Part shown: in pieces, positions 2,741 to 38,583 of the stretch | Layout: every line of letters begins with the position of its first letter | How positions within the stretch are numbered: the stretch's first letter is position 1 | NCBI GenBank assembly: GCA_028554795.2 | Contig: JAPYKE020000516.1 | Location: forward strand, 62,001-126,000 | Source: Sinohyriopsis cumingii | Taxonomy: Eukaryota; Mollusca; Bivalvia; Unionida; Unionidae | Direction of reading: 5' to 3' | Length of the DNA stretch: 64,000 bases | Notes under the pieces: model-generated | Databases searched by the model: none | Told to the model about the DNA's origin: nothing | What the model saw: the letters and a program-made list of their open reading frames with translations, nothing else | Position numbers and translations under genes: made by a program

Positions 2741-2798
2741 CTCATTGATTCAGTGGAATCAGATATCAGCTGATGCTTCAATACCGCACTCTCTCAAA

Positions 2799-3217: not shown

Positions 3218-6200
3218 TTCTGTGTTCAACTTAACATCATTTTGCTCTTTTCTTACATCCAAGGGTAAATATACCTGGGGAAAGCATATTTTATCCCTTG
3301 GACCTGTATTTCATTCACAGACAGTGTAAAATGATTAAGTAGAGAACTTGAGTAGGTTCTATTATAAAGTTTTCATCACAGTCCTCTAACTAAATACCTT
3401 ATAACTATGTTTATAAACAATTACTAAAGGCTATACAAGCAGATATGTGTTACTCAGGAAGTGACCTCATCATAAACACATAAATTAACTGCTTGGAGCC
3501 GTAATAAATAGTCTGAATGGCCAATACAAAATATAATTTTATCTTCATGTATTTAAAATGAAGGTCTCATTTTGACTTACAAAAATATTTTCTCTGACAA
3601 AATGTGACAAATATCCAACATTGGAGCTTGTATATGGTGTAGGAATATATGCATACTGATAACATTTAATATCATTCCAAAAAATGTTATATATGTGCAT
3701 TTTGGGAGGAAACTTTATTAAAATTTTTAAATAAAAATTAATTTTTTACTTTTAATTTCATTCTTATATTTTCAAAGTCAATATACCTAACATATTCAAA
3801 TTTCATGTGTCTATCATTACTAATAAAGATTTTATACCAATTTAACTTTACTCCAATACTGCACTGACAGGATATAGAACACAATTAATTTTACTATATG
3901 TTCTCTACATTTGTTTCTCAGTACTGACCTTTCCACTGTGTGACAATCAATGCAAATCATATGTTAATCTAAAATACCTTCAAAGATGACTTCACGGTGA
4001 AGTTCTTGTCAAAGGTTGACCTGCTCTTTTTTGAGATACTGGACTGTCAACATAGCAGCATGTAAACAGAACACAGATTTCACTTCCGAATCATCACCAA
4101 GGCCTTATTACTCACTGAGCGCTGTCGCCAAAATACACACAGACAACAACACCCTGAGCTCATATTATCAAGAATAAATGGTTACCTTTAAATCCCTACC
4201 AAAATGCATAAATAAAACTCTTCTATCTCCACCAAAATAAGAGAGGAACAAATATTCTAAAAATAGACTAGAAATACATTCGTGGGTACTGAACTGGAAG
4301 TATTAATTGTGATGTAATTCCTGACAGGCTCCATGTTTTAAGCCAATTTTAGTCAAACTTTTATATTTGCATGCTATACCTATTTCAACTTTATACATGA
4401 AGTCTTTTTGAAATTCCTTGCAAACAAAACATGTGACACCTGTCAGAAAGTATGTAGTGCTGGTGTTCCACAGGGTGCAAGGTCTAGTCCAAGTGCTCTT
4501 GAGAAGCCAAAACTAAATTTGCTATATCTTCCTTAATTATAGAAATTTTTCAATGCAGTAAAAACCAAATTGTAATACAAGACAAGCCCTGTCTGAAAAT
4601 ATGTTTGAAATTTATCAGTATTGATAAATTAAATTTTAATCGCAATTTAAATAAACATTTAAATTTTAAAAAGTAAATCGTTATTGAAAACTTATACAAG
4701 TTTTAAAACACAGATTGACAAATTTTAGACAGAAAAGTTGACTAATGAATGGTATTTAAAACAAATGGTAGTCTGGGTTTGTACAACTGATAACATTTTT
4801 CCCAGGGATAGTGGAGCAACATAGCTCATAGTGATTTTGGCAGTAAACCGCTATATGCCTGTCCAGATACATATTGGTGTACACACTAAAGAAACAATGC
4901 CAGGTGCTATGTTCCACATTTATTGTGTCAGGTACTTAGGCAGTTGTTTCCATAACTAATAGCACATTCAGATTTAAAGTTCTGATGGGATCACTACCAT
5001 GTTTTATAGCAAAAATGCATTCCATTTCAATGTCGATAACTACAAAAGGTGACAATGGGATAGGAAAATAGTTTCTAGGGAGGCTCTACCTTACTAAAAA
5101 ATGGTGCTGATCTCTCTCGTGAAGACCTAAGCCAAGTCTCTGAGGTGCTATATATCAGTGTGGTGATATAAACTAGTCTTGGCCACTTATGGCAGTACAC
5201 TGCACATGCCCTTATAAAACCTTGCTATCACCGCCGGACTATTGGAGAGCTTCCAAGCTGTTCCAACTCTAACACACTGTTCCAGATACCAGGCTAAACC
5301 GGAAAAGATACAATATGTTTCACTTAATTCTCGAAAACAGTAAGATCTAGGTAAATGAAGTTAAAATGTGTTAGATATGGTGATTTCAAGATAACATTAA
5401 GGTTGCAAGCATGGGGGAAAATATTAAACTTGACAGAGTGACACTCAGAAATGTGAAGCAATGGCCATGCATTAAAGTGATAAATTCATCCTAAAAATAT
5501 ATCAGGTTTCTAGAAGCATATTTAACCATTTACAGCTTAAATAACTAATCAGGTAGACTGTGTATCATAAAGTTTAAGGCAATGTTGAGGCAGTGAGGTT
5601 TGATCATTGGTGCAAACATTAGTACATACCAGTATACAGGAAAGTCAAGTGACAATGTACTAAATTAGAATATATTACTATAAGCAATCTTATTCATGAG
5701 GGAAATAACAATTTTGCATATTGCAAGTGAATACAGCCAAATGTGGTCACACAGATCAACTATAGGTACCAATAAATCCTATATCATCAACTAAATGTGA
5801 AAATCTGATCCCCAAAACTTGTAAACAAGGATGGAAAATTGCATATGTGGGACATATACAATGTACTTGTTAAGATCAAATGGGCAAACATAATTCAAAT
5901 GATCTGTTTGAACATTTATAGTGTATTTTTAAGAGTGTTGGTTACCAATTATTAAGCTCATTGATTCAGTGGAATCAGATATCAGCTGATGCTTCAATAC
6001 CGCACTCTCTCAAAGTACCAAATTGAAATATGTTACCATACATAGGCATATTCATGATGAAAATAACATTTTGGGATATTTTCAGTGCACACAGCCAGAA
6101 ATGTGCCTTACAGATTCACTATAGGTACAATTGTCAGCCTATATGATGTACTGAATGTGAACTTTTGATCCCAAACATTCTAAAATGTATTGATATTTGT

Positions 6201-6433
6201 TCAGGTGGGATATGTAACCATGTTAAGATCACTTATACAAAGTTAAGTACAAATAATCTGTTTGAATATTTCTTATGTCATTTTTAAAGTGTCAGTTAAC
6301 AAATATTATTAGTAATTAATAATGCATGATAAAGCAAGATGGATCATTAGAATTCCCATAACATCATATTGGCCACAATGACACACTACACCAATCAATA
6401 TCTTAACCAAACTGAACAATAAAATAGAATTCA
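3218..6433 (+). repeat. Satellite unit 2 (mosaic of unit-1-like front and type-X rear)
   Basis: The front matches unit 1 (TTTTATCTTC, TATGCATACT). The rear matches units 4 and 6: GACAGGCTCC near 4325, CTTCCAAGC, GACTGTGTATC near 5558, GTTCAGGTGGG and TGTCATTTTTAAAG. It carries the GGAATC form, so it begins the X/Y alternation. A private G4618 spoils the central palindrome. The front/rear switch suggests exchange or conversion within the unit. Confidence 0.97.
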
Positions 6434-9400
6434 TTCTGTGTTCAACTTAACATCATTTTGCTCTTTTCTTACATCCAAGGGTAAATATACCTGGGGAAAG
6501 CATATTTTATCCCTTGGACCTGTATTTCATTCACAGACAGTGTAAAATGATTAAGTAGAGAACTTGAGTAGGTTCTATTATAAAGTTTTCATCACAGTCC
6601 TCTAACTAAATACCTTATAACTATGTTTATAAACAATTACTAAAGGCTATACAAGCAGATATGTGTTACTCAGGAAGTGACCTCATCATAAACACATAAA
6701 TTAACTGCTTGGAGCCGTAATACATAGTCTGAATGGCCAATACAAAATATAATTTTGTCTTCATGTATTTAAAATGAAGGTCTCATTTTGACTTACAAAA
6801 ATATTTTCTCTGACAAAATGTGACAAATATCCAACATTGGAGCTTGTATATGGTGTAGGAATATATACATACTGATAACATTTAATATCATTCCAAAAAA
6901 TGTTATATATGTGCATTTTGGGAGGAAACTTTATTAAAATTTTTAAATAAAAATTAATTTTTTACTTTTAATTTCATTCTTATATTTTCACAGTCAATAT
7001 ACCTAACATATTCAAATTTCATGTGTCTATCATTACTAATAAAGATTTTATACCAATTTAACTTTACTCCAATACTGCACTGACAGGATATAGAACACAA
7101 TTAATTTTACTATATGTTCTCTACATTTGTTTCTCAGTACTGACCTTTCCACTGTGTGACAATCAATGCAAATCATATGTTAATCTAAAATACCTTCAAA
7201 GATGACTTCACGGTGAAGTTCTTGTCAAAGGTTGACCTGCTCTTTTTTGAGATACTGGACTGTCAACATAGCAGCATGTAAACAGAACACAGATTTCACT
7301 TCCGAATCATCACCAAGGCCTTATTACTCACTGAGCGCTGTCGCCAAAATACACACAGACAACAACACCCTGAGCTCATATTATCAAGAATAAATGGTTA
7401 CCTTTAAATCCCTACCAAAATGCATAAATAAAACTCTTCTATCTCCACCAAAATAAGAGAGGAACAAATATTCTAAAAATAGACTAGAAATACATTCGTG
7501 GGTACTGAACTGGAAGTATTAATTGTGATGTAATTCCTGACAGGTTCCATGTTTTAAGCCAATTTTAGTCAAACTTTTATATTTGCATGCTATACCTATT
7601 TCAACTTTATACATGAAGTCTTTTTGAAATTCCTTGCAAACAAAACATGTGACACCTGTCAGAAAGTATGTAGTGCTGGTGTTCCACAGGGTGCAAGGTC
7701 TAGTCCAAGTGCTCTTGAGAAGCCAAAACTAAATTTGCTATATCTTCCTTAATTATAGAAATTTTTCAATGCAGTAAAAACCAAATTGTAATACAAGACA
7801 AGCCCTGTCTGAAAATATGTTTGAAATTTATCAATATTGATAAATTAAATTTTAATCGCAATTTAAATAAACATTTAAATTTTAAAAAGTAAATCGTTAT
7901 TGAAAACTTATACAAGTTTTAAAACACAGATTGACAAATTTTAGACAGAAAAGTTGACTAATGAATGGTATTTAAAACAAATGGTAGTCTGGGTTTGTAC
8001 AACTGATAACATTTTTCCCAGGGATAGTGGAGCAACATAGCTCATAGTGATTTTGGCAGTAAACCGCTATATGCCTGTCCAGATACATATTGGTGTACAC
8101 ACTAAAGAAACAATGCCAGGTGCTATGTTCCACATTTATTGTGTCAGGTACTTAGGCAGTTGTTTCCATAACTAATAGCACATTCAGATTTAAAGTTCTG
8201 ATGGGATCACTACCATGTTTTATAGCAAAAATGCATTCCATTTCAATGTCGATAACTACAAAAGGTGACAATGGGATAGGAAAATAGTTTCTAGGGAGGC
8301 TCTACCTTACTAAAAAATGGTGCTGATCTCTCTCGTGAAGACCTAAGCCAAGTCTCTGAGGTGCTATATATCAGTGTGGTGATATAAACTAGTCTTGGCC
8401 ACTTATGGCAGTACACTGCACATGCCCTTATAAAACCTTGCTATCACCGCCGGACTATTGGAGAGCTTAAAGCTGTTCCAACTCTAACACACTGTTCCAG
8501 ATACCAGACTAAACCGGAAAAGATACAATATGTTTCACTTAATTCTCGAAAACAGTAAGATCTAGGTAAATGAAGTTAAAATGTGTTAGATATGGTGATT
8601 TCAAGATAACATTAAGGTTGCAAGCATGGGGGAAAATATTAAACTTGACAGAGTGACACTCAGAAATGTGAAGCAATGGCCATGCATTAAAGTGATAAAT
8701 TCATCCTAAAAATATATCAGGTTTCTAGAAGCATATTTAACCATTTACAGCTTAAATAACTAATCAGGTAGACTATGTATCATAAAGTTTAAGGCAATGT
8801 TGAGGCAGTGAGGTTTGATCATTGGTGCAAACATTAGTACATACCAGTATACAGGAAAGTCAAGTGACAATGTACTAAATTAGAATATATTACTATAAGC
8901 AATCTTATTCATGAGGGAAATAACAATTTTGCATATTGCAAGTGAATACAGCCAAATGTGGTCACACAGATCAACTATAGGTACCAATAAATCCTATATC
9001 ATCAACTAAATGTGAAAATCTGATCCCCAAAACTTGTAAACAAGGATGGAAAATTGCATATGTGGGACATATACAATGTACTTGTTAAGATCAAATGTGC
9101 AAACATAATTCAAATGATCTGTTTGAACATTTATAGTGTATTTTTAAGAGTGTTGGTTACCAATTATTAAGCTCATTGATTCAGTGGGAGCAGATATCAG
9201 CTGATGCTTCAATACCGCACTCTCTCAAAGTACCAAATTGAAATATGTTACCATACATAGGCATATTCATGATGAAAATAACATTTTGGGATATTTTCAG
9301 TGCACACAGCCAGAAATGTGCCTTACAGATTCACTATAGGTACAATTGTCAGCCTATATGATGTACTGAATGTGAACTTTTGATCCCAAACATTCTAAAA

Positions 9401-9648
9401 TGTATTGATATTTGTTCATGTGGGATATGTAACCATGTTAAGATCACTTATACAAAGTTAAGTACAAATAATCTGTTTGAATATTTCTTATGTAATCTTT
9501 AAAGTGTCAGTTAACAAATATTATTAGTAATTAATAATGCATGATAAAGCAAGATGGATCATTAGAATTCCCATAACATCATATTGGCCACAATGACACA
9601 CTACGCCAATCAATATCTTAACCAAACTGAACAAAAAAATAGAATTCA
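6434..9648 (+). repeat. Satellite unit 3 (type Y; first half of dimer 1)
   Basis: Diagnostic variants are C6723 (TAATACATAG), GACAGGTTCC near 7541, the short CTTAAAGC form near 8467, CAAATGTGCAAAC, GGGAGC near 9186, ACTACGCC near 9602 and the run AACAAAAAAATAG just before the next unit. All recur in unit 5, and all but the last in unit 7. Relative to unit 5 I noticed one difference only (T here where unit 5 has G14281). Confidence 0.97.
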
Positions 9649-12600
9649 TTCTGTGTTCAACTTAACATCATTTTGCTCTTTTTTTACATCCAAGGGTAAA
9701 TATACCTGGGGAAAGCATATTTTATCCCTTGGACCTGTATTTCATTCACAGACAGTGTAAAATGATTAAGTAGAGAACTTGAGTAGGTTCTATTATAAAG
9801 TTTTCATCACAGTCCTCTAACTAAATACCTTATAACTATGTTTATAAACAATTACTAAAGGCTATACAAGCAGATATGTGTTACTCAGGAAGTGACCTCA
9901 TCATAAACACATAAATTAACTGCTTGGAGCCGTAATAAATAGTCTGAATGGCCAATACAAAATATAATTTTGTCTTCATGTATTTAAAATGAAGGTCTCA
10001 TTTTGACTTACAAAAATATTTTCTCTGACAAAATGTGACAAATATCCAACATTGGAGCTTGTATATGGTGTAGGAATATATACATACTGATAACATTTAA
10101 TATCATTCCAAAAAATATTATATATGTGCATTTTGGGAGGAAACTTTATTAAAATTTTTAAATAAAAATTAATTTTTTACTTTTAATTTCATTCTTATAT
10201 TTTCAAAGTCAATATACCTAACATATTCAAATTTCATGTGTCTATCATTACTAATAAAGATTTTATACCAATTTAACTTTACTCCAATACTGCACTGACA
10301 GGATATAGAACACAATTAATTTTACTATATGTTCTCTACATTTGTTTCTCAGTACTGACCTTTCCAAAGTGTAACAATCAATGCAAATCATATGTTAATC
10401 TAAAATACCTTCAAAGATGACTTCACGGTGAAGTTCTTGTCAAAGGTTGACCTGCTCTTTTTTGAGATACTGGACTGTCAACATAGCAGTAATTAAACAG
10501 AACACAGATTTCACTTCCGAATCATCACCAAGGCCTTATTACTCACTGAGCGCTGTCGCCAAAATACACACAGACAACAACACCCTGAGCTCATATTATC
10601 AAGAATAAATGGTTACCTTTAAATCCCTACCAAAATGCATAAATAAAACTCTTCTATCTCCACCAAAATAAGAGAGGAACAAATATTCTAAAAATAGACT
10701 AGAAATACATTCGTGGGTACTGAACTGGAAGTATTAATTGTGATGTAATTCCTGACAGGCTCCATGTTTTAAGCCAATTTTAGTCAAACTTTTATATTTG
10801 CATGCTATACCTATTTCAACTTTATACATGAAGTCTTTTTGAAATTCCTTGCAAACAAAACATGTGACACCTGTCAGAAAGTATGTAGTGCTGGTGTTCC
10901 ACAGGGTGCAAGGTCTAGTCCAAGTGCTCTTGAGAAGCCAAAACTAAATTTGCTATATCTTCCTTAATTATAGAAATTTTTCAATGCAGTAAAAACCAAA
11001 TTGTAATACAAGACAAGCCCTGTCTGAAAATATGTTTGAAATTTATCAATATTGATAAATTAAATTTTAATCGCAATTTAAATAAACATTTAAATTTTAA
11101 AAAGTAAATCGTTATTGAAAACTTATACAAGTTTTAAAACACAGATTGACAAATTTTAGACAGAAAAGTTGACTAATGAATGGTATTTAAAACAAATGGT
11201 AGTCTGGGTTTGTACAACTGATAACATTTTTCCCAGGGATAGTGGAGCAACATAGCTCATAGTGATTTTGGCAGTAAACCGCTATATGCCTGTCCAGATA
11301 CATATTGGTGTACACACTAAAGAAACAATGCCAGGTGCTATGTTCCACATTTATTGTGTCAGGTACTTAGGCAGTTGTTTCCATAACTAATAGCACATTC
11401 AGATTTAAAGTTCTGATGGGATCACTACCATGTTTTATAGCAAAAATGCATTCCATTTCAATGTCGATAACTACAAAAGGTGACAATGGGATAGGAAAAT
11501 AGTTTCTAGGGAGGCTCTACCTTACTAAAAAATGGTGCTGATCTCTCTCGTGAAGACCTAAGCCAAGTCTCTGAGGTGCTATATATCAGTGTGGTGATAT
11601 AAACTAGTCTTGGCCACTTATGGCAGTACACTGCACATGCCCTTATAAAACCTTGCTATCACCGCCGGACTATTGGAGAGCTTCCAAGCTGTTCCAACTC
11701 TAACACACTGTTCCAGATACCAGGCTAAACCGGAAAAGATACAATATGTTTCACTTAATTCTCGAAAACAGTAAGATCTAGGTAAATGAAGTTAAAATGT
11801 GTTAGATATGGTGATTTCAAGATAACATTAAGGTTGCAAGCATGGGGGAAAATATTAAACTTGACAGAGTGACACTCAGAAATGTGAAGCAATGGCCATG
11901 CATTAAAGTGATAAATTCATCCTAAAAATATATCAGGTTTCTAGAAGCATATTTAACCATTTACAGCTTAAATAACTAATCAGGTAGACTGTGTATCATA
12001 AAGTTTAAGGCAATGTTGAGGCAGTGAGGTTTGATCATTGGTGCAAACATTAGTACATACCAGTATACAGGAAAGTCAAGTGACAATGTACTAAATTAGA
12101 ATATATTACTATAAGCAATCTTATTCATGAGGGAAATAACAATTTTGCATATTGCAAGTGAATACAGCCAAATGTGGTCACACAGATCAACTATAGGTAC
12201 CAATAAATCCTATATCATCAACTAAATGTGAAAATCTGATCCCCAAAACTTGTAAACAAGGATGGAAAATTGCATATGTGGGACATATACAATGTACTTG
12301 TTAAGATCAAATGGGCAAACATAATTCAAATGATCTGTTTGAACATTTATAGTGTATTTTTAAGAGTGTTGGTTACCAATTATTAAGCTCATTGATTCAG
12401 TGGAATCAGATATCAGCTGATGCTTCAATACCGCACTCTCTCAAAGTACCAAATTGAAATATGTTACCATACATAGGCATATTCATGATGAAAATAACAT
12501 TTTGGGATATTTTCAGTGCACACAGCCAGAAATGTGCCTTACAGATTCACTATAGGTACAATTGTCAGCCTATATGATGTACTGAATGTGAACTTTTGAT

Positions 12601-12864
12601 CCCAAACATTCTAAAATGTATTGATATTTGTTCAGGTGGGATATGTAACCATGTTAAGATCACTTATACAAAGTTAAGTACAAATAATCTGTTTGAATAT
12701 TTCTTATGTCATTTTTAAAGTGTCAGTTAACAAATATTATTAGTAATTAATAATGCATGATAAAGCAAGATGGATCATTAGAATTCCCATAACATCATAT
12801 TGGCCACAATGACACACTACACCAATCAATATCTTAACCAAACTGAACAATAAAATAGAATTCA
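9649..12864 (+). repeat. Satellite unit 4 (type X; second half of dimer 1)
   Basis: Diagnostic variants shared only with unit 6 are the run CTTTTTTTACATCC near the unit start, TTTCCAAAGTGTAAC at 10361-10374, and CAGTAATTAAACAG near 10487, which differs at three bases from all other units (T10490, A10492, T10493). The rear has CTTCCAAGC, GACTGTGTATC, GGAATC near 12401 and ACTACACC, as in units 2 and 6. Confidence 0.97.
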
Positions 12865-15800
12865 TTCTGTGTTCAACTTAACATCATTTTGCTCTTTTCT
12901 TACATCCAAGGGTAAATATACCTGGGGAAAGCATATTTTATCCCTTGGACCTGTATTTCATTCACAGACAGTGTAAAATGATTAAGTAGAGAACTTGAGT
13001 AGGTTCTATTATAAAGTTTTCATCACAGTCCTCTAACTAAATACCTTATAACTATGTTTATAAACAATTACTAAAGGCTATACAAGCAGATATGTGTTAC
13101 TCAGGAAGTGACCTCATCATAAACACATAAATTAACTGCTTGGAGCCGTAATACATAGTCTGAATGGCCAATACAAAATATAATTTTGTCTTCATGTATT
13201 TAAAATGAAGGTCTCATTTTGACTTACAAAAATATTTTCTCTGACAAAATGTGACAAATATCCAACATTGGAGCTTGTATATGGTGTAGGAATATATACA
13301 TACTGATAACATTTAATATCATTCCAAAAAATGTTATATATGTGCATTTTGGGAGGAAACTTTATTAAAATTTTTAAATAAAAATTAATTTTTTACTTTT
13401 AATTTCATTCTTATATTTTCACAGTCAATATACCTAACATATTCAAATTTCATGTGTCTATCATTACTAATAAAGATTTTATACCAATTTAACTTTACTC
13501 CAATACTGCACTGACAGGATATAGAACACAATTAATTTTACTATATGTTCTCTACATTTGTTTCTCAGTACTGACCTTTCCACTGTGTGACAATCAATGC
13601 AAATCATATGTTAATCTAAAATACCTTCAAAGATGACTTCACGGTGAAGTTCTTGTCAAAGGTTGACCTGCTCTTTTTTGAGATACTGGACTGTCAACAT
13701 AGCAGCATGTAAACAGAACACAGATTTCACTTCCGAATCATCACCAAGGCCTTATTACTCACTGAGCGCTGTCGCCAAAATACACACAGACAACAACACC
13801 CTGAGCTCATATTATCAAGAATAAATGGTTACCTTTAAATCCCTACCAAAATGCATAAATAAAACTCTTCTATCTCCACCAAAATAAGAGAGGAACAAAT
13901 ATTCTAAAAATAGACTAGAAATACATTCGTGGGTACTGAACTGGAAGTATTAATTGTGATGTAATTCCTGACAGGTTCCATGTTTTAAGCCAATTTTAGT
14001 CAAACTTTTATATTTGCATGCTATACCTATTTCAACTTTATACATGAAGTCTTTTTGAAATTCCTTGCAAACAAAACATGTGACACCTGTCAGAAAGTAT
14101 GTAGTGCTGGTGTTCCACAGGGTGCAAGGTCTAGTCCAAGTGCTCTTGAGAAGCCAAAACTAAATTTGCTATATCTTCCTTAATTATAGAAATTTTTCAA
14201 TGCAGTAAAAACCAAATTGTAATACAAGACAAGCCCTGTCTGAAAATATGTTTGAAATTTATCAATATTGATAAATTAAAGTTTAATCGCAATTTAAATA
14301 AACATTTAAATTTTAAAAAGTAAATCGTTATTGAAAACTTATACAAGTTTTAAAACACAGATTGACAAATTTTAGACAGAAAAGTTGACTAATGAATGGT
14401 ATTTAAAACAAATGGTAGTCTGGGTTTGTACAACTGATAACATTTTTCCCAGGGATAGTGGAGCAACATAGCTCATAGTGATTTTGGCAGTAAACCGCTA
14501 TATGCCTGTCCAGATACATATTGGTGTACACACTAAAGAAACAATGCCAGGTGCTATGTTCCACATTTATTGTGTCAGGTACTTAGGCAGTTGTTTCCAT
14601 AACTAATAGCACATTCAGATTTAAAGTTCTGATGGGATCACTACCATGTTTTATAGCAAAAATGCATTCCATTTCAATGTCGATAACTACAAAAGGTGAC
14701 AATGGGATAGGAAAATAGTTTCTAGGGAGGCTCTACCTTACTAAAAAATGGTGCTGATCTCTCTCGTGAAGACCTAAGCCAAGTCTCTGAGGTGCTATAT
14801 ATCAGTGTGGTGATATAAACTAGTCTTGGCCACTTATGGCAGTACACTGCACATGCCCTTATAAAACCTTGCTATCACCGCCGGACTATTGGAGAGCTTA
14901 AAGCTGTTCCAACTCTAACACACTGTTCCAGATACCAGACTAAACCGGAAAAGATACAATATGTTTCACTTAATTCTCGAAAACAGTAAGATCTAGGTAA
15001 ATGAAGTTAAAATGTGTTAGATATGGTGATTTCAAGATAACATTAAGGTTGCAAGCATGGGGGAAAATATTAAACTTGACAGAGTGACACTCAGAAATGT
15101 GAAGCAATGGCCATGCATTAAAGTGATAAATTCATCCTAAAAATATATCAGGTTTCTAGAAGCATATTTAACCATTTACAGCTTAAATAACTAATCAGGT
15201 AGACTATGTATCATAAAGTTTAAGGCAATGTTGAGGCAGTGAGGTTTGATCATTGGTGCAAACATTAGTACATACCAGTATACAGGAAAGTCAAGTGACA
15301 ATGTACTAAATTAGAATATATTACTATAAGCAATCTTATTCATGAGGGAAATAACAATTTTGCATATTGCAAGTGAATACAGCCAAATGTGGTCACACAG
15401 ATCAACTATAGGTACCAATAAATCCTATATCATCAACTAAATGTGAAAATCTGATCCCCAAAACTTGTAAACAAGGATGGAAAATTGCATATGTGGGACA
15501 TATACAATGTACTTGTTAAGATCAAATGTGCAAACATAATTCAAATGATCTGTTTGAACATTTATAGTGTATTTTTAAGAGTGTTGGTTACCAATTATTA
15601 AGCTCATTGATTCAGTGGGAGCAGATATCAGCTGATGCTTCAATACCGCACTCTCTCAAAGTACCAAATTGAAATATGTTACCATACATAGGCATATTCA
15701 TGATGAAAATAACATTTTGGGATATTTTCAGTGCACACAGCCAGAAATGTGCCTTACAGATTCACTATAGGTACAATTGTCAGCCTATATGATGTACTGA

Positions 15801-16079
15801 ATGTGAACTTTTGATCCCAAACATTCTAAAATGTATTGATATTTGTTCATGTGGGATATGTAACCATGTTAAGATCACTTATACAAAGTTAAGTACAAAT
15901 AATCTGTTTGAATATTTCTTATGTAATCTTTAAAGTGTCAGTTAACAAATATTATTAGTAATTAATAATGCATGATAAAGCAAGATGGATCATTAGAATT
16001 CCCATAACATCATATTGGCCACAATGACACACTACGCCAATCAATATCTTAACCAAACTGAACAAAAAAATAGAATTCA
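12865..16079 (+). repeat. Satellite unit 5 (type Y; first half of dimer 2)
   Basis: A near-perfect copy of unit 3, including C13154 (TAATACATAG), GGGAGC near 15618, ACTACGCC and the AACAAAAAAATAG junction. The one difference I noticed from unit 3 is G14281, just downstream of the palindrome. Confidence 0.97.
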
Positions 16080-19000: not shown

Positions 19001-19295
19001 CTATATGATGTACTGAATGTGAACTTTTGATCCCAAACATTCTAAAATGTATTGATATTTGTTCAGGTGGGATATGTAACCATGTTAAGATCACTTATAC
19101 AAAGTTAAGTACAAATAATCTGTTTGAATATTTCTTATGTCATTTTTAAAGTGTCAGTTAACAAATATTATTAGTAATTAATAATGCATGATAAAGCAAG
19201 ATGGATCATTAGAATTCCCATAACATCATATTGGCCACAATGACACACTACACCAATCAATATCTTAACCAAACTGAACAATAAAATAGAATTCA
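16080..19295 (+). repeat. Satellite unit 6 (type X; second half of dimer 2)
   Basis: Reads as a copy of unit 4, with the same CTTTTTTTACATCC, GTGTAAC near 16800 and CAGTAATTAAACAG near 16917 variants. I noticed no difference from unit 4. It is the last unit with ATTCTCGAAAAC; from unit 7 on this reads ATTCTAGAAAAC. Confidence 0.97.
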
Positions 19296-25500: not shown

Positions 25501-25726
25501 GGATATGTAACCATGTTAAGATCACTTATACAAAGTTAAGTACAAATAATCTGTTTGAATATTTCTTATGTAATCTTTAAAGTGTCAGTTAACAAATATT
25601 ATTAGTAATTAATAATGCATGATAAAGCAAGATGGATCATTAGAATTCCCATAACATCATATTGGCCACAATGACACACTACACCAATCAATATCTTAAC
25701 CAAACTGAACAATAAAATAGAATTCA
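22511..25726 (+). repeat. Satellite unit 8 (first unit of second variant group)
   Basis: It introduces the group-wide variants TATACCTACT at 22941-22950 and GAACATAATT near 23172, which hold to the window end. It carries T24474 (CTTTGCC), A24514 (AACATTGC) and the one-base-longer CTAGACCGGAAAAAG form at 24587-24600, shared with units 10 and 13. The start AACTGAACATC near 22521 is shared only with unit 13. TGTATTAATATA near 22932 is private. Rear type GGAATC, ACACC. Confidence 0.97.
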
Positions 25727-28700
25727 TTCTGTGTTCAACTTAACATCATTTTGCTCTTTTCTTACATCCAAGGGTAAATATACCTGGGGAAAGCATATTT
25801 TATCCCTTGGACCTGTATTTCATTCACAGACAGTGTAAAATGATTAAGTAGAGAACTTGAGTAGGTTCTATTATAAAGTTTTCATCACAGTCCTCTAACT
25901 AAATACCTTATAACTATGTTTATAAACAATTACTAAAGGCTATACAAGCAGATATGTGTTACTCAGGAAGTGACCTCATCATAAACACATAAATTAACTG
26001 CTTGGAGCCGTAATAAATAGTCTGAATGGCCAATACAAAATATAATTTTGTCTTCATGTATTTAAAATGAAGGTCTCATTTTGACTTACAAAAATATTTT
26101 CTCTGACAAAATGTGACAAATATCCAACATTGGAGCTTGTATATGGTGTAGGAATATATACCTACTGATAACATTTAATATCATTCCAAAAAATATTATA
26201 TATGTGCATTTTGGGAGGAAACTTTATTAAAATTTTTAAATAAAAATTAATTTTTTACTTTTAATTTCATTCTTATATTTTCACAGTCAATATACCTAAC
26301 ATATTCAAATTTCATGTGTCTATCATTACTAATAAAGATTTTATACCAATTTAACTTTACTCCAATACTGCACTGACAGGATATAGAACATAATTAATTT
26401 TACTATATGTTCTCTACATTTGTTTCTCAGTACTGACCTTTCCACTGTGTGACAATCAATGCAAATCATATGTTAATCTAAAATACCTTCAAAGATGACT
26501 TCACGGTGAAGTTGTTGTCAAAGGTTGACCTGCTCTTTTTTGAGATACTGGACTGTCAACATAGCAGCATGTAAACAGAACACAGATTTCACTTCCGAAT
26601 CATCACCAAGGCCTTATTACTCACTGAGCGCTGTCGCCAAAATACACACAGACAACAACACCCTGAGCTCATATTATCAAGAATAAATGGTTACCTTTAA
26701 ATCCCTACCAAAATGCATAAATAAAACTCTTCTATCTCCACCAAAATAAGAGAGGAACAAATATTCTAAAAATAGACTAGAAATACATTCGTGGGTACTG
26801 AACTGGAAGTATTAATTGTGATGTAATTCCTGACAGGCTCCATGTTTTAAGCCAATTTTAGTCAAACTTTTATATTTGCATGCTATACCTATTTCAACTT
26901 TATACATGAAGTCTTTTTGAAATTCCTTGCAAACAAAACATGTGACACCTGTCAGAAAGTATGTAGTGCTGGTGTTCCACAGGGTGCAAGGTCTAGTCCA
27001 AGTGCTCTTGAGAAGCCAAAACTAAATTTGCTATATCTTCCTTAATTATAGAAATTTTTCAATGCAGTAAAAACCAAATTGTAATACAAGACAAGCCCTG
27101 TCTGAAAATATGTTTGAAATTTATCAATATTGATAAATTAAATTTTAATCGCAATTTAAATAAACATTTAAATTTTAAAAAGTAAATCGTTATTGAAAAC
27201 TTATACAAGTTTTAAAACACAGATTGACAAATTTTAGACAGAAAAGTTGACTAATGAATGGTATTTAAAACAAATGGTAGTCTGGGTTTGTACAACTGAT
27301 AACATTTTTCCCAGGGATAGTGGAGCAACATAGCTCATAGTGATTTTGGCAGTAAACCGCTATATGCCTGTCCAGATACATATTGGTGTACACACTAAAG
27401 AAACAATGCCAGGTGCTATGTTCCACATTTATTGTGTCAGGTACTTAGGCAGTTGTTTCCATAACTAATAGCACATTCAGATTTAAAGTTCTGATGGGAT
27501 CACTACCATGTTTTATAGCAAAAATGCATTCCATTTCAATGTCGATAACTACAAAAGGTGACAATGGGATAGGAAAATAGTTTCTAGGGAGGCTCTACCT
27601 TACTAAAAAATGGTGCTGATCTCTCTCGTGAAGACCTAAGCCAAGTCTCTGAGGTGCTATATATCAGTGTGGTGATATAAACTAGTCTTGGCCACTTATG
27701 GCAGTACACTGCACATGCCCTTATAAAACCTTGCTATCACCGCCGGACTATTGGAGAGCTTAAAGCTGTTCCAACTCTAACACACTGTTCCAGATACCAG
27801 ACTAAACCGGAAAAGATACAATATGTTTCACTTAATTCTAGAAAACAGTAAGATCTAGGTAAATGAAGTTAAAATGTGTTAGATATGGTGATTTCAAGAT
27901 AACATTAAGATTGCAAGCATGGGGGAAAATATTAAACTTGACAGAGTGACACTCAGAAATGTGAAGCAATGGCCATGCATTAAAGTGATAAATTCATCCT
28001 AAAAATATATCAGGTTTCTAGAAGCATATTTAACCATTTACAGCTTAAATAACTAATCAGGTAGACTATGTATCATAAAGTTTAAGGCAATGTTGAGGCA
28101 GTGAGGTTTGATCATTGGTGCAAACATTAGTACATACCAGTATACAGGAAAGTCAAGTGACAATGTACTAAATTAGAATATATTACTATAAGCAATCTTA
28201 TTCATGAGGGAAATAACAATTTTGCATATTGCAAGTGAATACAGCCAAATGTGGTCACACAGATCAACTATAGGTACCAATAAATCCTATATCATCAACT
28301 AAATGTGAAAATCTGATCCCCAAAACTTGTAAACAAGGATGGAAAATTGCATATGTGGGACATATACAATGTACTTGTTAAGATCAAATGTGCAAACATA
28401 ATTCAAATGATCTGTTTGAACATTTATAGTGTATTTTTAAGAGTGTTGGTTACCAATTATTAAGCTCATTGATTCAGTGGGAGCAGATATCAGCTGATGC
28501 TTCAATACCGCACTCTCTCAAAGTACCAAATTGAAATATGTTACCATACATAGGCATATTCATGATGAAAATAACATTTTGGGATATTTTCAGTGCACAC
28601 AGCCAGAAATGTGCCTTACAGATTCACTATAGGTACAATTGTCAGCCTATATGATGTACTGAATGTGAACTTTTGATCCCAAACATTCTAAAATGTATTG

Positions 28701-28941
28701 ATATTTGTTCATGTGGGATATGTAACCATGTTAAGATCACTTATACAAAGTTAAGTACAAATAATCTGTTTGAATATTTCTTATGTAATCTTTAAAGTGT
28801 CAGTTAACAAATATTATTAGTAATTAATAATGCATGATAAAGCAAGATGGATCATTAGAATTCCCATAACATCATATTGGCCACAATGACACACTACACC
28901 AATCAATATCTTAACCAAACTGAACAATAAAATAGAATTCA
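25727..28941 (+). repeat. Satellite unit 9 (type Y; paired with unit 11)
   Basis: G26514 (GAAGTTGTTG) is found only here and in unit 11. It carries A27910 (AAGATTGC) and GGGAGC near 28479. Unlike unit 11 it ends in the ACACC form, so the last few tens of bases follow the type-X units. Confidence 0.97.
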
Positions 28942-31900
28942 TTCTGTGTTCAACTTAACATCATTTTGCTCTTTTCTTACATCCAAGGGTAAATATACCT
29001 GGGGAAAGCATATTTTATCCCTTGGACCTGTATTTCATTCACAGACAGTGTAAAATGATTAAGTAGAGAACTTGAGTAGGTTCTATTATAAAGTTTTCAT
29101 CACAGTCCTCTAACTAAATACCTTATAACTATGTTTATAAACAATTACTAAAGGCTATACAAGCAGATATGTGTTACTCAGGAAGTGACCTCATCATAAA
29201 CACATAAATTAACTGCTTGGAGCCGTAATAAATAGTCTGAATGGCCAATACAAAATATAATTTTGTCTTCATGTATTTAAAATGAAGGTCTCATTTTGAC
29301 TTACAAAAATATTTTCTCTGACAAAATGTGACAAATATCCAACATTGGAGCTTGTATATGGTGTAGGAATATATACCTACTGATAACATTTAATCATTCC
29401 AAAAAATATTATATATGTGCATTTTGGGAGGAAACTTTATTAAAATTTTTAAATAAAAATTAATTTTTTACTTTTAATTTCATTCTTATATTTTCACAGT
29501 CAATATACCTAACATATTCAAATTTCATGTGTCTATCATTACTAATAAAGATTTTATACCAATTTAACTTTACTCCAATACTGCACTGACAGGATATAGA
29601 ACATAATTAATTTTACTATATGTTCTCTACATTTGTTTCTCAGTACTGACCTTTCCACTGTGTGACAATCAATGCAAATCATATGTTAATCTAAAATACC
29701 TTCAAAGATGACTTCACGGTGAAGTTCTTGTCAAATGTTGACCTGCTCTTTTTTGAGATACTGGACTGTCAACATAGCAGCATGTAAACAGAACACAGAT
29801 TTCACTTCCGAATCATCACCAAGGCCTTATTACTCACTGAGCGCTGTCGCCAAAATACACACAGACAACAACACCCTGAGCTCATATTATCAAGAATAAA
29901 TGGTTACCTTTAAATCCCTACCAAAATGCATAAATAAAACTCTTCTATCTCCACCAAAATAAGAGAGGAACAAATATTCTAAAAATAGACTAGAAATACA
30001 TTCGTGGGTACTGAACTGGAAGTATTAATTGTGATGTAATTCCTGACAGGCTCCATGTTTTAAGCCAATTTTAGTCAAACTTTTATATTTGCATGCTATA
30101 CCTATTTCAACTTTATACATGAAGTCTTTTTGAAATTCCTTGCAAACAAAACATGTGACACCTGTCAGAAAGTATGTAGTGCTGGTGTTCCACAGGGTGC
30201 AAGGTCTAGTCCAAGTGCTCTTGAGAAGCCAAAACTAAATTTGCTATATCTTCCTTAATTATAGAAATTTTTCAATGCAGTAAAAACCAAATTGTAATAC
30301 AAGACAAGCCCTGTCTGAAAATATGTTTGAAATTTATCAATATTGATAAATTAAATTTTAATCGCAATTTAAATAAACATTTAAATTTTAAAAAGTAAAT
30401 CGTTATTGAAAACTTATACAAGTTTTAAAACACAGATTGACAAATTTTAGACAGAAAAGTTGACTAATGAATGGTATTTAAAACAAATGGTAGTCTGGGT
30501 TTGTACAACTGATAACATTTTTCCCAGGGATAGTGGAGCAACATAGCTCATAGTGATTTTGGCAGTAAACCGCTATATGCCTGTCCAGATACATATTGGT
30601 GTACACACTAAAGAAACAATGCCAGGTGCTATGTTCCACATTTATTGTGTCAGGTACTTAGGCAGTTGTTTCCATAACTAATAGCACATTCAGATTTAAA
30701 GTTCTGATGGGATCACTACCATGTTTTATAGCAAAAATGCATTCCATTTCAATGTCGATAACTACAAAAGGTGACAATGGGATAGGAAAATAGTTTCTAG
30801 GGAGGCTCTACCTTACTAAAAAATGGTGCTGATCTCTCTCGTGAAGACCTAAGCCAAGTCTCTGAGGTGCTATATATCAGTGTGGTGATATAAACTAGTC
30901 TTTGCCACTTATGGCAGTACACTGCACATGCCCTTATAAAACATTGCTATCACCGCCGGACTATTGGAGAGCTTAAAGCTGTTCCAACTCTAACACACTG
31001 TTCCAGATACCAGACTAGACCGGAAAAAGATACAATATGTTTCACTTAATTCTAGAAAACAGTAAGATCTAGGTAAATGAAGTTAAAATGTGTTAGATAT
31101 GGTGATTTCAAGATAACATTAAGGTTGCAAGCATGGGGGAAAATATTAAACTTGACAGAGTGACACTCAGAAATGTGAAGCAATGGCCATGCATTAAAGT
31201 GATAAATTCATCCTAAAAATATATCAGGTTTCTAGAAGCATATTTAACCATTTACAGCTTAAATAACTAATCAGGTAGACTATGTATCATAAAGTTTAAG
31301 GCAATGTTGAGGCAGTGAGGTTTGATCATTGGTGCAAACATTAGTACATACCAGTATACAGGAAAGTCAAGTGACAATGTACTAAATTAGAATATATTAC
31401 TATAAGCAATCTTATTCATGAGGGAAATAACAATTTTGCATATTGCAAGTGAATACAGCCAAATGTGGTCACACAGATCAACTATAGGTACCAATAAATC
31501 CTATATCATCAACTAAATGTGAAAATCTGATCCCCAAAACTTGTAAACAAGGATGGAAAATTGCATATGTGGGACATATACAATGTACTTGTTAAGATCA
31601 AATGTGCAAACATAATTCAAATGATCTGTTTGAACATTTATAGTGTATTTTTAAGAGTGTTGGTTACCAATTATTAAGCTCATTGATTCAGTGGAATCAG
31701 ATATCAGCTGATGCTTCAATACCGCACTCTCTCAAAGTACCAAATTGAAATATGTTACCATACATAGGCATATTCATGATGAAAATAACATTTTGGGATA
31801 TTTTCAGTGCACACAGCCAGAAATGTGCCTTACAGATTCACTATAGGTACAATTGTCAGCCTATATGATGTACTGAATGTGAACTTTTGATCCCAAACAT

Positions 31901-32155
31901 TCTAAAATGTATTGATATTTGTTCATGTGGGATATGTAACCATGTTAAGATCACTTATACAAAGTTAAGTACAAATAATCTGTTTGAATATTTCTTATGT
32001 AATCTTTAAAGTGTCAGTTAACAAATATTATTAGTAATTAATAATGCATGATAAAGCAAGATGGATCATTAGAATTCCCATAACATCATATTGGCCACAA
32101 TGACACACTACACCAATCAATATCTTAACCAAACTGAACAATAAAATAGAATTCA
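28942..32155 (+). repeat. Satellite unit 10 (chimeric, 3214 bp)
   Basis: The front has the two-base deletion that turns AATATCATTCC into AATCATTCC (29392-29400) and T29736 (CAAATGTTG), as in unit 12. The rear has T30904 (CTTTGCC) and the longer CTAGACCGGAAAAAG form near 31013, as in units 8 and 13. The deletion and the insertion explain the length. The combination marks an exchange between these two unit kinds, somewhere between about 29.74 and 30.90 kb. Confidence 0.97.
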
Positions 32156-35100
32156 TTCTGTGTTCAACTTAACATCATTTTGCTCTTTTCTTACATCCAA
32201 GGGTAAATATACCTGGGGAAAGCATATTTTATCCCTTGGACCTGTATTTCATTCACAGACAGTGTAAAATGATTAAGTAGAGAACTTGAGTAGGTTCTAT
32301 TATAAAGTTTTCATCACAGTCCTCTAACTAAATACCTTATAACTATGTTTATAAACAATTACTAAAGGCTATACAAGCAGATATGTGTTACTCAGGAAGT
32401 GACCTCATCATAAACACATAAATTAACTGCTTGGAGCCGTAATAAATAGTCTGAATGGCCAATACAAAATATAATTTTGTCTTCATGTATTTAAAATGAA
32501 GGTCTCATTTTGACTTACAAAAATATTTTCTCTGACAAAATGTGACAAATATCCAACATTGGAGCTTGTATATGGTGTAGGAATATATACCTACTGATAA
32601 CATTTAATATCATTCCAAAAAATATTATATATGTGCATTTTGGGAGGAAACTTTATTAAAATTTTTAAATAAAAATTAATTTTTTACTTTTAATTTCATT
32701 CTTATATTTTCACAGTCAATATACCTAACATATTCAAATTTCATGTGTCTATCATTACTAATAAAGATTTTATACCAATTTAACTTTACTCCAATACTGC
32801 ACTGACAGGATATAGAACATAATTAATTTTACTATATGTTCTCTACATTTGTTTCTCAGTACTGACCTTTCCACTGTGTGACAATCAATGCAAATCATAT
32901 GTTAATCTAAAATACCTTCAAAGATGACTTCACGGTGAAGTTGTTGTCAAAGGTTGACCTGCTCTTTTTTGAGATACTGGACTGTCAACATAGCAGCATG
33001 TAAACAGAACACAGATTTCACTTCCGAATCATCACCAAGGCCTTATTACTCACTGAGCGCTGTCGCCAAAATACACACAGACAACAACACCCTGAGCTCA
33101 TATTATCAAGAATAAATGGTTACCTTTAAATCCCTACCAAAATGCATAAATAAAACTCTTCTATCTCCACCAAAATAAGAGAGGAACAAATATTCTAAAA
33201 ATAGACTAGAAATACATTCGTGGGTACTGAACTGGAAGTATTAATTGTGATGTAATTCCTGACAGGCTCCATGTTTTAAGCCAATTTTAGTCAAACTTTT
33301 ATATTTGCATGCTATACCTATTTCAACTTTATACATGAAGTCTTTTTGAAATTCCTTGCAAACAAAACATGTGACACCTGTCAGAAAGTATGTAGTGCTG
33401 GTGTTCCACAGGGTGCAAGGTCTAGTCCAAGTGCTCTTGAGAAGCCAAAACTAAATTTGCTATATCTTCCTTAATTATAGAAATTTTTCAATGCAGTAAA
33501 AACCAAATTGTAATACAAGACAAGCCCTGTCTGAAAATATGTTTGAAATTTATCAATATTGATAAATTAAATTTTAATCGCAATTTAAATAAACATTTAA
33601 ATTTTAAAAAGTAAATCGTTATTGAAAACTTATACAAGTTTTAAAACACAGATTGACAAATTTTAGACAGAAAAGTTGACTAATGAATGGTATTTAAAAC
33701 AAATGGTAGTCTGGGTTTGTACAACTGATAACATTTTTCCCAGGGATAGTGGAGCAACATAGCTCATAGTGATTTTGGCAGTAAACCGCTATATGCCTGT
33801 CCAGATACATATTGGTGTACACACTAAAGAAACAATGCCAGGTGCTATGTTCCACATTTATTGTGTCAGGTACTTAGGCAGTTGTTTCCATAACTAATAG
33901 CACATTCAGATTTAAAGTTCTGATGGGATCACTACCATGTTTTATAGCAAAAATGCATTCCATTTCAATGTCGATAACTACAAAAGGTGACAATGGGATA
34001 GGAAAATAGTTTCTAGGGAGGCTCTACCTTACTAAAAAATGGTGCTGATCTCTCTCGTGAAGACCTAAGCCAAGTCTCTGAGGTGCTATATATCAGTGTG
34101 GTGATATAAACTAGTCTTGGCCACTTATGGCAGTACACTGCACATGCCCTTATAAAACCTTGCTATCACCGCCGGACTATTGGAGAGCTTAAAGCTGTTC
34201 CAACTCTAACACACTGTTCCAGATACCAGACTAAACCGGAAAAGATACAATATGTTTCACTTAATTCTAGAAAACAGTAAGATCTAGGTAAATGAAGTTA
34301 AAATGTGTTAGATATGGTGATTTCAAGATAACATTAAGATTGCAAGCATGGGGGAAAATATTAAACTTGACAGAGTGACACTCAGAAATGTGAAGCAATG
34401 GCCATGCATTAAAGTGATAAATTCATCCTAAAAATATATCAGGTTTCTAGAAGCATATTTAACCATTTACAGCTTAAATAACTAATCAGGTAGACTATGT
34501 ATCATAAAGTTTAAGGCAATGTTGAGGCAGTGAGGTTTGATCATTGGTGCAAACATTAGTACATACCAGTATACAGGAAAGTCAAGTGACAATGTACTAA
34601 ATTAGAATATATTACTATAAGCAATCTTATTCATGAGGGAAATAACAATTTTGCATATTGCAAGTGAATACAGCCAAATGTGGTCACACAGATCAACTAT
34701 AGGTACCAATAAATCCTATATCATCAACTAAATGTGAAAATCTGATCCCCAAAACTTGTAAACAAGGATGGAAAATTGCATATGTGGGACATATACAATG
34801 TACTTGTTAAGATCAAATGTGCAAACATAATTCAAATGATCTGTTTGAACATTTATAGTGTATTTTTAAGAGTGTTGGTTACCAATTATTAAGCTCATTG
34901 ATTCAGTGGGAGCAGATATCAGCTGATGCTTCAATACCGCACTCTCTCAAAGTACCAAATTGAAATATGTTACCATACATAGGCATATTCATGATGAAAA
35001 TAACATTTTGGGATATTTTCAGTGCACACAGCCAGAAATGTGCCTTACAGATTCACTATAGGTACAATTGTCAGCCTATATGATGTACTGAATGTGAACT

Positions 35101-35370
35101 TTTGATCCCAAACATTCTAAAATGTATTGATATTTGTTCATGTGGGATATGTAACCATGTTAAGATCACTTATACAAAGTTAAGTACAAATAATCTGTTT
35201 GAATATTTCTTATGTAATCTTTAAAGTGTCAGTTAACAAATATTATTAGTAATTAATAATGCATGATAAAGCAAGATGGATCATTAGAATTCCCATAACA
35301 TCATATTGGCCACAATGACACACTACGCCAATCAATATCTTAACCAAACTGAACAATAAAATAGAATTCA
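32156..35370 (+). repeat. Satellite unit 11 (type Y)
   Basis: Near-copy of unit 9: G32943 (GAAGTTGTTG), A34339 (AAGATTGC) and GGGAGC near 34908, but with the ACGCC end typical of most type-Y units. Confidence 0.97.
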
Positions 35371-38300
35371 TTCTGTGTTCAACTTAACATCATTTTGCTC
35401 TTTTCTTACATCCAAGGGTAAATATACCTGGGGAAAGCATATTTTATCCCTTGGACCTGTATTTCATTCACAGACAGTGTAAAATGATTAAGTAGAGAAC
35501 TTGAGTAGGTTCTATTATAAAGTTTTCATCACAGTCCTCTAACTAAATACCTTATAACTATGTTTATAAACAATTACTAAAGGCTATACAAGCAGATATG
35601 TGTTACTCAGGAAGTGACCTCATCATAAACACATAAATTAACTGCTTGGAGCCGTAATAAATAGTCTGAATGGCCAATACAAAATATAATTTTGTCTTCA
35701 TGTATTTAAAATGAAGGTCTCATTTTGACTTACAAAAATATTTTCTCTGACAAAATGTGACAAATATCCAACATTGGAGCTTGTATATGGTGTAGGAATA
35801 TATACCTACTGATAACATTTAATCATTCCAAAAAATATTATATATGTGCATTTTGGGAGGAAACTTTATTAAAATTTTTAAATAAAAATTAATTTTTTAC
35901 TTTTAATTTCATTCTTATATTTTCACAGTCAATATACCTAACATATTCAAATTTCATGTGTCTATCATTACTAATAAAGATTTTATACCAATTTAACTTT
36001 ACTCCAATACTGCACTGACAGGATATAGAACATAATTAATTTTACTATATGTTCTCTACATTTGTTTCTCAGTACTGACCTTTCCACTGTGTGACAATCA
36101 ATGCAAATCATATGTTAATCTAAAATACCTTCAAAGATGACTTCACGGTGAAGTTCTTGTCAAATGTTGACCTGCTCTTTTTTGAGATACTGGACTGTCA
36201 ACATAGCAGCATGTAAACAGAACACAGATTTCACTTCCGAATCATCACCAAGGCCTTATTACTCACTGAGCGCTGTCGCCAAAATACACACAGACAACAA
36301 CACCCTGAGCTCATATTATCAAGAATAAATGGTTACCTTTAAATCCCTACCAAAATGCATAAATAAAACTCTTCTATCTCCACCAAAATAAGAGAGGAAC
36401 AAATATTCTAAAAATAGACTAGAAATACATTCGTGGGTACTGAACTGGAAGTATTAATTGTGATGTAATTCCTGACAGGCTCCATGTTTTAAGCCAATTT
36501 TAGTCAAACTTTTATATTTGCATGCTATACCTATTTCAACTTTATACATGAAGTCTTTTTGAAATTCCTTGCAAACAAAACATGTGACACCTGTCAGAAA
36601 GTATGTAGTGCTGGTGTTCCACAGGGTGCAAGGTCTAGTCCAAGTGCTCTTGAGAAGCCAAAACTAAATTTGCTATATCTTCCTTAATTATAGAAATTTT
36701 TCAATGCAGTAAAAACCAAATTGTAATACAAGACAAGCCCTGTCTGAAAATATGTTTGAAATTTATCAATATTGATAAATTAAATTTTAATCGCAATTTA
36801 AATAAACATTTAAATTTTAAAAAGTAAATCGTTATTGAAAACTTATACAAGTTTTAAAACACAGATTGACAAATTTTAGACAGAAAAGTTGACTAATGAA
36901 TGGTATTTAAAACAAATGGTAGTCTGGGTTTGTACAACTGATAACATTTTTCCCAGGGATAGTGGAGCAACATAGCTCATAGTGATTTTGGCAGTAAACC
37001 GCTATATGCCTGTCCAGATACATATTGGTGTACACACTAAAGAAACAATGCCAGGTGCTATGTTCCACATTTATTGTGTCAGGTACTTAGGCAGTTGTTT
37101 CCATAACTAATAGCACATTCAGATTTAAAGTTCTGATGGGATCACTACCATGTTTTATAGCAAAAATGCATTCCATTTCAATGCCGATAACTACAAAAGG
37201 TGACAATGGGATAGGAAAATAGTTTCTAGGGAGGCTCTACCTTACTAAAAAATGGTGCTGATCTCTCTCGTGAAGACCTAAGCCAAGTCTCTGAGGTGCT
37301 ATATATCAGTGTGGTGATATAAACTAGTCTTGGCCACTTATGGCAGTACACTGCACATGCCCTTATAAAACATTGCTATCACCGCCGGACTATTGGAGAG
37401 CTTAAAGCTGTTCCAACTCTAACACACTGTTCCAGATACCAGACTAAACCGGAAAAGATACAATATGTTTCACTTAATTCTAGAAAACAGTAAGATCTAG
37501 GTAAATGAAGTTAAAATGTGTTAGATATGGTGATTTCAAGATAACATTAAGGTTGCAAGCATGGGGGAAAATATTAAACTTGACAGAGTGACACTCAGAA
37601 ATGTGAAGCAATGGCCATGCATTAAAGTGATAAATTCATCCTAAAAATATATCAGGTTTCTAGAAGCATATTTAACCATTTACAGCTTAAATAACTAATC
37701 AGGTAGACTATGTATCATAAAGTTTAAGGCAATGTTGAGGCAGTGAGGTTTGATCATTGGTGCAAACATTAGTACATACCAGTATACAGGAAAGTCAAGT
37801 GACAATGTACTAAATTAGAATATATTACTATAAGCAATCTTATTCATGAGGGAAATAACAATTTTGCATATTGCAAGTGAATACAGCCAAATGTGGTCAC
37901 ACAGATCAACTATAGGTACCAATAAATCCTATATCATCAACTAAATGTGAAAATCTGATCCCCAAAACTTGTAAACAAGGATGGAAAATTGCATATGTGG
38001 GACATATACAATGTACTTGTTAAGATCAAATGTGCAAACATAATTCAAATGATCTGTTTGAACATTTATAGTGTATTTTTAAGAGTGTTGGTTACCAATT
38101 ATTAAGCTCATTGATTCAGTGGAATCAGATATCAGCTGATGCTTCAATACCGCACTCTCTCAAAGTACCAAATTGAAATATGTTACCATACATAGGCATA
38201 TTCATGATGAAAATAACATTTTGGGATATTTTCAGTGCACACAGCCAGAAATGTGCCTTACAGATTCACTATAGGTACAATTGTCAGCCTATATGATGTA

Positions 38301-38583
38301 CTGAATGTGAACTTTTGATCCCAAACATTCTAAAATGTATTGATATTTGTTCATGTGGGATATGTAACCATGTTAAGATCACTTATACAAAGTTAAGTAC
38401 AAATAATCTGTTTGAATATTTCTTATGTAATCTTTAAAGTGTCAGTTAACAAATATTATTAGTAATTAATAATGCATGATAAAGCAAGATGGATCATTAG
38501 AATTCCCATAACATCATATTGGCCACAATGACACACTACGCCAATCAATATCTTAACCAAACTGAACAATAAAATAGAATTCA
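35371..38583 (+). repeat. Satellite unit 12 (type X, 3213 bp)
   Basis: It has the two-base deletion (AATCATTCC near 35821), T36165 (CAAATGTTG), C37184 (ATGCCGATAAC, shared only with unit 16), AACATTGC near 37370 and GGAATC near 38121. It is the last unit of the strict X/Y alternation, because unit 13 is again GGAATC. Confidence 0.97.

Follow-up and report, generated by a model that had tools for sequence, protein, structure and literature searches.

Tandem arrays display higher-order repeat (HOR) structure when their adjacent multimers are much more alike than adjacent monomers (PMC4053949). In the survey of Melters et al. 2013, clear HOR structure was found in 76 of the 171 species with Sanger data, short monomers being favoured there by read length, and HOR patterns are said to need only polymorphism and a particular recombination pattern in the array (PMC4053949). 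Alpha-satellite HORs are built from 171-bp units which are about 70% identical within a HOR and contain CENP-B boxes, blocks being more alike than the units inside a block (PMC8122249). Higher order on kilobase units has been described as well. The pericentric 2D8 sequence of Solanum bulbocastanum is a 5.9-kb tandem repeat, homologous to the rDNA spacer, that represents a dimer of ~3-kb monomers (review PMC8122249). On gorilla acrocentric chromosomes, the SST1/SST1' macrosatellite (~1.4-kb monomers) forms tandem dimers whose two forms separate in a tree, SST1' being fast-evolving and accompanied by inserted HSat1A (PMC12767296, preprint 2025). The 3mer HORs of NBPF/Olduvai, located in genes, measure 4.8 kb and consist of ~1.6-kb monomers, human m1/m2 and m1/m3 being 19-20% apart (PMC11675761, 2024). 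Finally, chromosome-specific centromeric satellites of chicken, with units of 1.8-3.2 kb, are listed as long homogeneous arrays (PMC4107277, table citing Shang et al. 2010). In the complete chicken genome of 2023, the centromeres of macrochromosomes contain younger expansions (PMC9974502), which loosely resembles the situation below.

The window analysed here, a stretch of 64,000 bases, is occupied over its whole length by a single head-to-tail array of 19.9 units of 3,213-3,217 bp, with no flanks, as revealed by a unit walk with MAFFT alignment (3,218 columns) and by offset counts. Units U1-U10 start at positions 1, 3218, 6434, 9649, 12865, 16080, 19296, 22511, 25727 and 28942, units U11-U20 at 32156, 35371, 38584, 41800, 45015, 48228, 51441, 54656, 57869 and 61084; the last one, U20, ends with the window after 2,917 bp. 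All units are more than 99% identical to each other, with an observed mean pairwise difference of 14.2. Tandem Repeats Finder, run on the window with a longest period of 500, returned no rows, and no satellite fitting the 3.2-kb unit or the measured unit lengths was found in the open-licence literature that was searched. The window looks like an ordinary satellite array with a large unit, and the full array may be much longer.

Eleven successive units of this array, U2 to U12, alternate between two forms of a marker site, and two tracts among them repeat as dimers. These dimers are of nearly the same scale as 2D8, which, unlike this array, is a plant sequence related to the rDNA spacer; CAG and CTG are not depleted here. 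The array shares with gorilla SST1/SST1' the tandem dimers of a large monomer and the separation of two forms in a tree, but the forms are less than 1% apart and the dimers are present in 2-3 copies. With NBPF/Olduvai it has in common a higher order on a kilobase unit, whereas no coding sequence was found here and the divergence between forms is again below 1%. The chicken satellites have similar unit lengths and are likened by description only. Alpha satellite shows the same relation between blocks and units, but the array departs from that family in its unit length and in its lack of a CENP-B box core: neither an exact core nor a full box within 5 mismatches occurs on either strand of the 64 kb, one core-like site with 2 mismatches being present in U8. 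The initial annotation, which had set the alternation against the higher order known for the 171-bp alpha satellite, implied a novelty that is not supported, dimers and trimers of kilobase monomers being already published. With its order of two 3.2-kb units, the array adds another case to the known kilobase-scale HORs, here very young and short, and leaves general knowledge of satellites unchanged.

Alternation of units 2 to 12

The most conspicuous sign of the alternation is a marker site, GGAATC or GGGAGC, present once in each of the 20 units. GGAATC (A) occurs in 12 units and GGGAGC (G) in 8, their order from U1 to U20 being A A G A G A G A G A G A A G G A G A A A. Strict alternation of the marker over units 2-12 was thus seen correctly in the initial annotation, the sites lying at 5971, 9186, 12402, 15617, 18833, 22048, 25264, 28479, 31693, 34908 and 38121 (span 5971..38126). 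The boundaries given for the region, 3218-38583, and the dimer length of 6.43 kb are likewise correct: the dimers measure 6,431 bp for U2+3, U4+5, U6+7 and U8+9, and 6,429 bp for U10+11. On both sides of the region the same marker type is repeated, at U1-U2 and at U12-U13.

Further sites follow the marker. Up to five had been reported to alternate together in U2-7, which they do, but the number was an undercount, since 14 alignment columns alternate strictly in U2-7; in U8-12 there are 5 such columns. Shuffled unit orders match these column counts in 99 of 1,000 cases for U2-7 and in 101 of 1,000 for U8-12, and by themselves the counts are weak evidence. As to strictness across all of units 2-12, the claim was too broad: apart from the two columns of the marker, none keeps alternating over all 11 units. 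Such alternation of two columns over 11 units is reached by 3 of 1,000 orders, these being the very columns which the initial annotation had picked.

A more general comparison employs distances between units n and n+2, expected in the initial annotation to be smaller than those between neighbours through unit 12. Full-length distances were counted as substitutions plus gap events over U1-U19; a shorter comparison stops where U20 is cut. The excess is real in U2-12, where the n/n+2 distance is below both neighbour distances in 8 of 9 triples, but U6-U7-U8 breaks it. In this triple, U6 and U8 are 26 changes apart at full length, while U6-U7 differ by 24 and U7-U8 by 16 (23 versus 20 and 15 in the shorter comparison). 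After removal of the marker columns, 7 of the 9 triples still pass in the shorter comparison. When the shorter comparison is applied to the whole window, 9 of 18 triples pass, and 10 of 17 do so for full-length U1-U19, the additional one being U12-U13-U14.

Random orders of units provide a measure for this excess. In U2-12, a stretch chosen for its alternation, the mean lag-1 distance exceeds the mean lag-2 distance by 10.01 changes, a value reached by 16 of 20,000 orders. The difference is 18.6 in U2-7 (460 of 20,000 orders), 6.33 in U8-12 (699 of 20,000) and 4.58 in U1-19 (220 of 20,000). Past U12 there is no period-2 excess, the value for U13-19 being -0.67, which 12,628 of 20,000 orders reach. 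The excess does not depend on the marker: without its two columns, in the comparison to the cut end of U20, it persists in U2-12 (137 of 20,000 orders), and exact counts give 20 of 720 orders for U2-7 and 4 of 120 for U8-12.

Two dimer tracts and their borders

Upon base-by-base comparison of positions two units apart, the alternating region falls into two tracts. Tract I spans 4063..21408 (17,346 bp, or 2.70 copies of a 6,431-bp dimer). Its A form comprises part of U2, U4 and U6, its B form U3, U5 and part of U7. Over 4063-14977 (10.9 kb, 1.70 periods), each base equals that 6,431 positions further on, with three mismatches at 4618, 7850 and 14281; the longest exact match covers 6,430 bp (7851 = 14282). 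Tract II spans 23308..37183 (13,876 bp, or 2.16 copies of a 6,429-bp dimer), its A' form being made up of U8, U10 and part of U12, its B' form of U9 and U11. Here the identity at an offset of 6,429 extends over 23308-30754 (7.4 kb, 1.16 periods) with a single mismatch at 28898, the longest exact match being 5,590 bp (23308 = 29737). Starting from positions 14978-23307, the base two units on is often different, 45 such positions being listed, and the stretch between the tracts themselves, delimited from the list of lag-2 mismatches, is 21409..23307. The marker phase is still carried across it. As the tract borders are located inside units, the exchange was not tied to unit boundaries.

Distances between units confirm this division. 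In tract I, U4 and U6 are identical (0 substitutions), U3-U5 differ by 1, U5-U7 by 4 and U3-U7 by 3 substitutions; neighbours among U3-U7 are 22-23 substitutions apart, and U2-U3 are 17 apart. In tract II, the lag-2 distances are 1 for U9-U11 and 4 for both U8-U10 and U10-U12, and neighbours among U8-U12 differ by 7-10 substitutions. The A units U4 and U6 differ from the A' units U8, U10 and U12 by 22-24 substitutions, but the latter differ from their B' partners U9 and U11 by only 7-11, less than A from A'. Two different founder pairs were therefore copied. B and B' are 8-11 substitutions apart.

In the tree, U1, U2, U4 and U6 are split off by a branch supported at 100/99. U3, U5 and U7 are split off at 90/97, their branch arising from a fork that also holds the 13 remaining units and is poorly resolved, and U9 groups with U11 (95/85). 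In and after tract II, B' (U9, U11, U14, U15 and U17) is supported at 83/78, A' (U8, U10, U12 and U13) needs two changes, and 7 of the 16 inner branches are left open. Multimers are much more alike than adjacent monomers only within the two tracts, and the same multimer does not run in register through units 2-12, the register failing at U6-U8. An amplification unit of about 6.43 kb, as initially proposed, is supported for each tract, but the two tracts repeat different dimers, and a single eleven-unit higher-order array is not supported. The eleven-unit alternation is probably the product of two separate local duplications whose markers, by simple reasoning, had a one-in-two chance of being in step. 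The case illustrates how one striking marker may lend separate events the look of one long higher-order array.

Single-unit copying occurs in this array, too. The sequence from 43950 onward equals that from 47163 onward over 2,878 bp exactly, and over 3,066 bp (0.95 unit) with one mismatch; this duplication, at 43950..50040, shows that units have also been copied one at a time. U19 and U20 differ by 4 substitutions over the available part of U20. When tracts with at most one mismatch were sought at lags of 1 to 8 units, only lag 2 reached a full period, lag 1 attaining 0.95 and lags 3-8 at most 0.35 of it.

Two observations concern variation along the array. Columns 436 and 665 carry fixed differences between U1-U7 and U8-U20, which points to regional sub-families with a border near the seam between the dimer tracts. 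U4 contains two clusters of three substitutions each, at columns 719-725 (10367-10373) and 842-845 (10490-10493), unique to U4 and U6; they look like the outcome of several bases mutating together or of conversion by a diverged copy. U2 and U4 differ only in the first 845 columns and at column 1402. A mosaic origin of U2 was considered but abandoned, since only U4 and U6 show the changes at columns 35, 719-725 and 842-845; U2 may keep the older state.

Origin of the alternation

Identity at a lag of k units over at least one full period is the trace of a k-unit tandem duplication, and both tracts fit k = 2. The alternation is most probably explained by recent two-unit tandem duplications in an array that also copies single units. 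According to this explanation, a satellite with a unit of ~3.2 kb would be homogenised locally as blocks of units are duplicated in tandem or lost. The process which we infer is unequal exchange, with sister strands or homologues out of alignment, or a copying equivalent to it that depends on replication. Blocks of exactly two units would have been copied recently, about three times in total: tract I would have gone through about two rounds or a single tripling, tract II through one round. The alternation inside each tract would stem from the difference between its two founder units, and with tracts derived from different founder pairs the markers would have come into step by the one-in-two chance. 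Such an array displays base by base how period-2 order arises, with copying of two-unit blocks, visible borders and one-unit copying nearby.

How often events of various sizes would generate the observed order was assessed by simulation of 120-unit arrays that mutate and in which deletion offsets tandem duplication. Each model supplied 640 windows, each 20 units long, from 8 runs. These windows are correlated, their mean pairwise differences are 17-22 as against 14.2 observed, and the models operate with neither within-unit crossovers nor gene conversion. At least 9 of 18 n/n+2 triples, the observed number being 9, passed in 0 of 640 windows with single-unit events and in 0.8% with geometrically distributed block sizes of mean 1.33. 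Mixed blocks devoid of dimer preference gave 6.6% (geometric, mean 2), 12.8% (uniform 1-3), 17.2% (uniform 1-6) and 17.5% (geometric, mean 6). When 80% of events copied two units, the share was 57.5%. Runs of 11 or more units in which no more than one triple fails arose in 0% of windows under single-unit events and under geometric blocks of mean 1.33, in 1.4% under both geometric blocks of mean 2 and uniform 1-3, in 2.0% under uniform 1-6, in 2.2% under geometric blocks of mean 6 and in 17.8% under the 80% dimer bias. Limiting the simulation to windows with mean pairwise differences of 8-22 changed little. An earlier simulation, with mutation set too high (mean pairwise difference 55-198), had yielded at least 9 triples in 5-21% of windows for mixed blocks, 0% for single-unit events and 100% for fixed two-unit events. 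Within these models, the low counts for single-unit or mostly single-unit events imply that events of two units or more are fairly common. A preference for two-unit steps is possible and would give a slightly better fit in the models, which do not depend on it, however; we take it to be probably absent.

The strongest alternative makes such a preference intrinsic. A true dimeric HOR array would have its exchange register set at two units, e.g. by a bound protein or a chromatin loop spanning the dimer; units 2-12 would lie within it and U7/U8 would be a seam between two homogenised versions of one dimer. The marker phase kept over 11 units, the relatedness of B to B' (8-9 substitutions separate U7 from U11 and U9) and the ease with which the dimer-biased simulation reproduces the data all speak for it. 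Nevertheless we regard it as improbable: A and A', being further from each other than A' is from B', are not versions of one unit, U13-19 lack the n/n+2 excess, markers in step at one seam demand no more than an even chance, and the marker type is repeated at both ends of the alternation. There is an equally small chance that the array, its forms less than 1% apart, intrinsically prefers exchange in two-unit steps of the 3.2-kb unit and is only beginning to turn into a 6.43-kb HOR. A true higher-order array in the same phase may also lie beyond the window. If the preference were real, the window would be a snapshot of the birth of a HOR on a kilobase unit.

Less probable still is an artefact in which the assembler duplicated near-identical long units in two places. 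The exact copies of 6,430 and 5,590 bp and the absence of a unique flank in the window are what such an error would produce, and the near-identical copies could partly be due to it, but the copies carry differences of their own (three in tract I, one in tract II), and A and B of tract I differ by 17-23 substitutions per 3.2 kb, a divergence at which accurate long reads can be placed. Patchwise gene conversion between alternate units without any block duplication, although in keeping with tract borders inside units and with the substitution clusters confined to U4 and U6, is very improbable: in both tracts the lag-2 identity crosses entire units almost without interruption and exceeds one full period, and conversion patches are expected to be shorter and non-periodic.

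Composition and internal structure of the unit

Base composition was determined in U8. G+C content is 32%, the observed/expected ratio of CpG is 0.18, those of TpG and CpA are 1.39 and 1.34, and neither CAG nor CTG is depleted. Depletion of CpG without loss of CAG and CTG is expected of CpG-only methylation, as in vertebrates, rather than of the plant type, and the composition of U8 fits the former pattern.

D4Z4 carries the DUX4 reading frame. Affiliation with the D4Z4/DXZ4 macrosatellites (~3.3 and 3 kb), judged by description, was rejected on account of the low G+C and CpG values and the lack of a long frame: the sole open reading frame of at least 60 amino acids beginning with ATG, GTG or TTG in window positions 1-6500 encodes 75 amino acids. 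The DXZ4 unit is described as CpG-rich (PMC8122249).

No Pfam family was matched above its cut-off by 18 of the 19 stop-to-stop frames of at least 45 amino acids overlapping U8, the 19th being the next unit's copy of the first. A weak RVT_1 match in a U8 frame (E 0.05, 13.7 bits as against a cut-off of 29.6) was not accepted. The whole window gave no Rfam match at gathering scores, and ARAGORN in its bacterial setting detected no tRNA in one dimer. No similarity was found to plasmids (near search, query 1-6500), to phages (distant search, query 22511-28941) or to E. coli (near search, query 22511-25726), and exact unit-derived patterns had no matches in viral contigs (three scans) and prokaryote genome contigs (two scans), as is expected for eukaryotic satellite DNA. 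On the plus strand of U8, an open frame at 23635-23829 includes a stretch resembling the GVPQG motif of reverse transcriptases; this frame, in which the RVT_1 match lies below its cut-off, is possibly a very old retroelement relic.

The unit also contains an older internal duplication, at 24824..25533 (U8 positions ~2314-3023; detected in window positions 1-3300 as well), consisting of two ~355-bp copies that are 61-62% identical. Beyond the first 65 bp, the score of their alignment was reached by none of 500 shuffles. A third copy was considered and dropped: it is recognisable over only its first ~60 bp, beyond the first 65 bp its scores were reached by 59 of 500 shuffles against the second copy and by 381 of 500 against the first, and its nhmmer match was circular, the model having included that copy. 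Possibly the large unit incorporates a piece of an older satellite with a short period.
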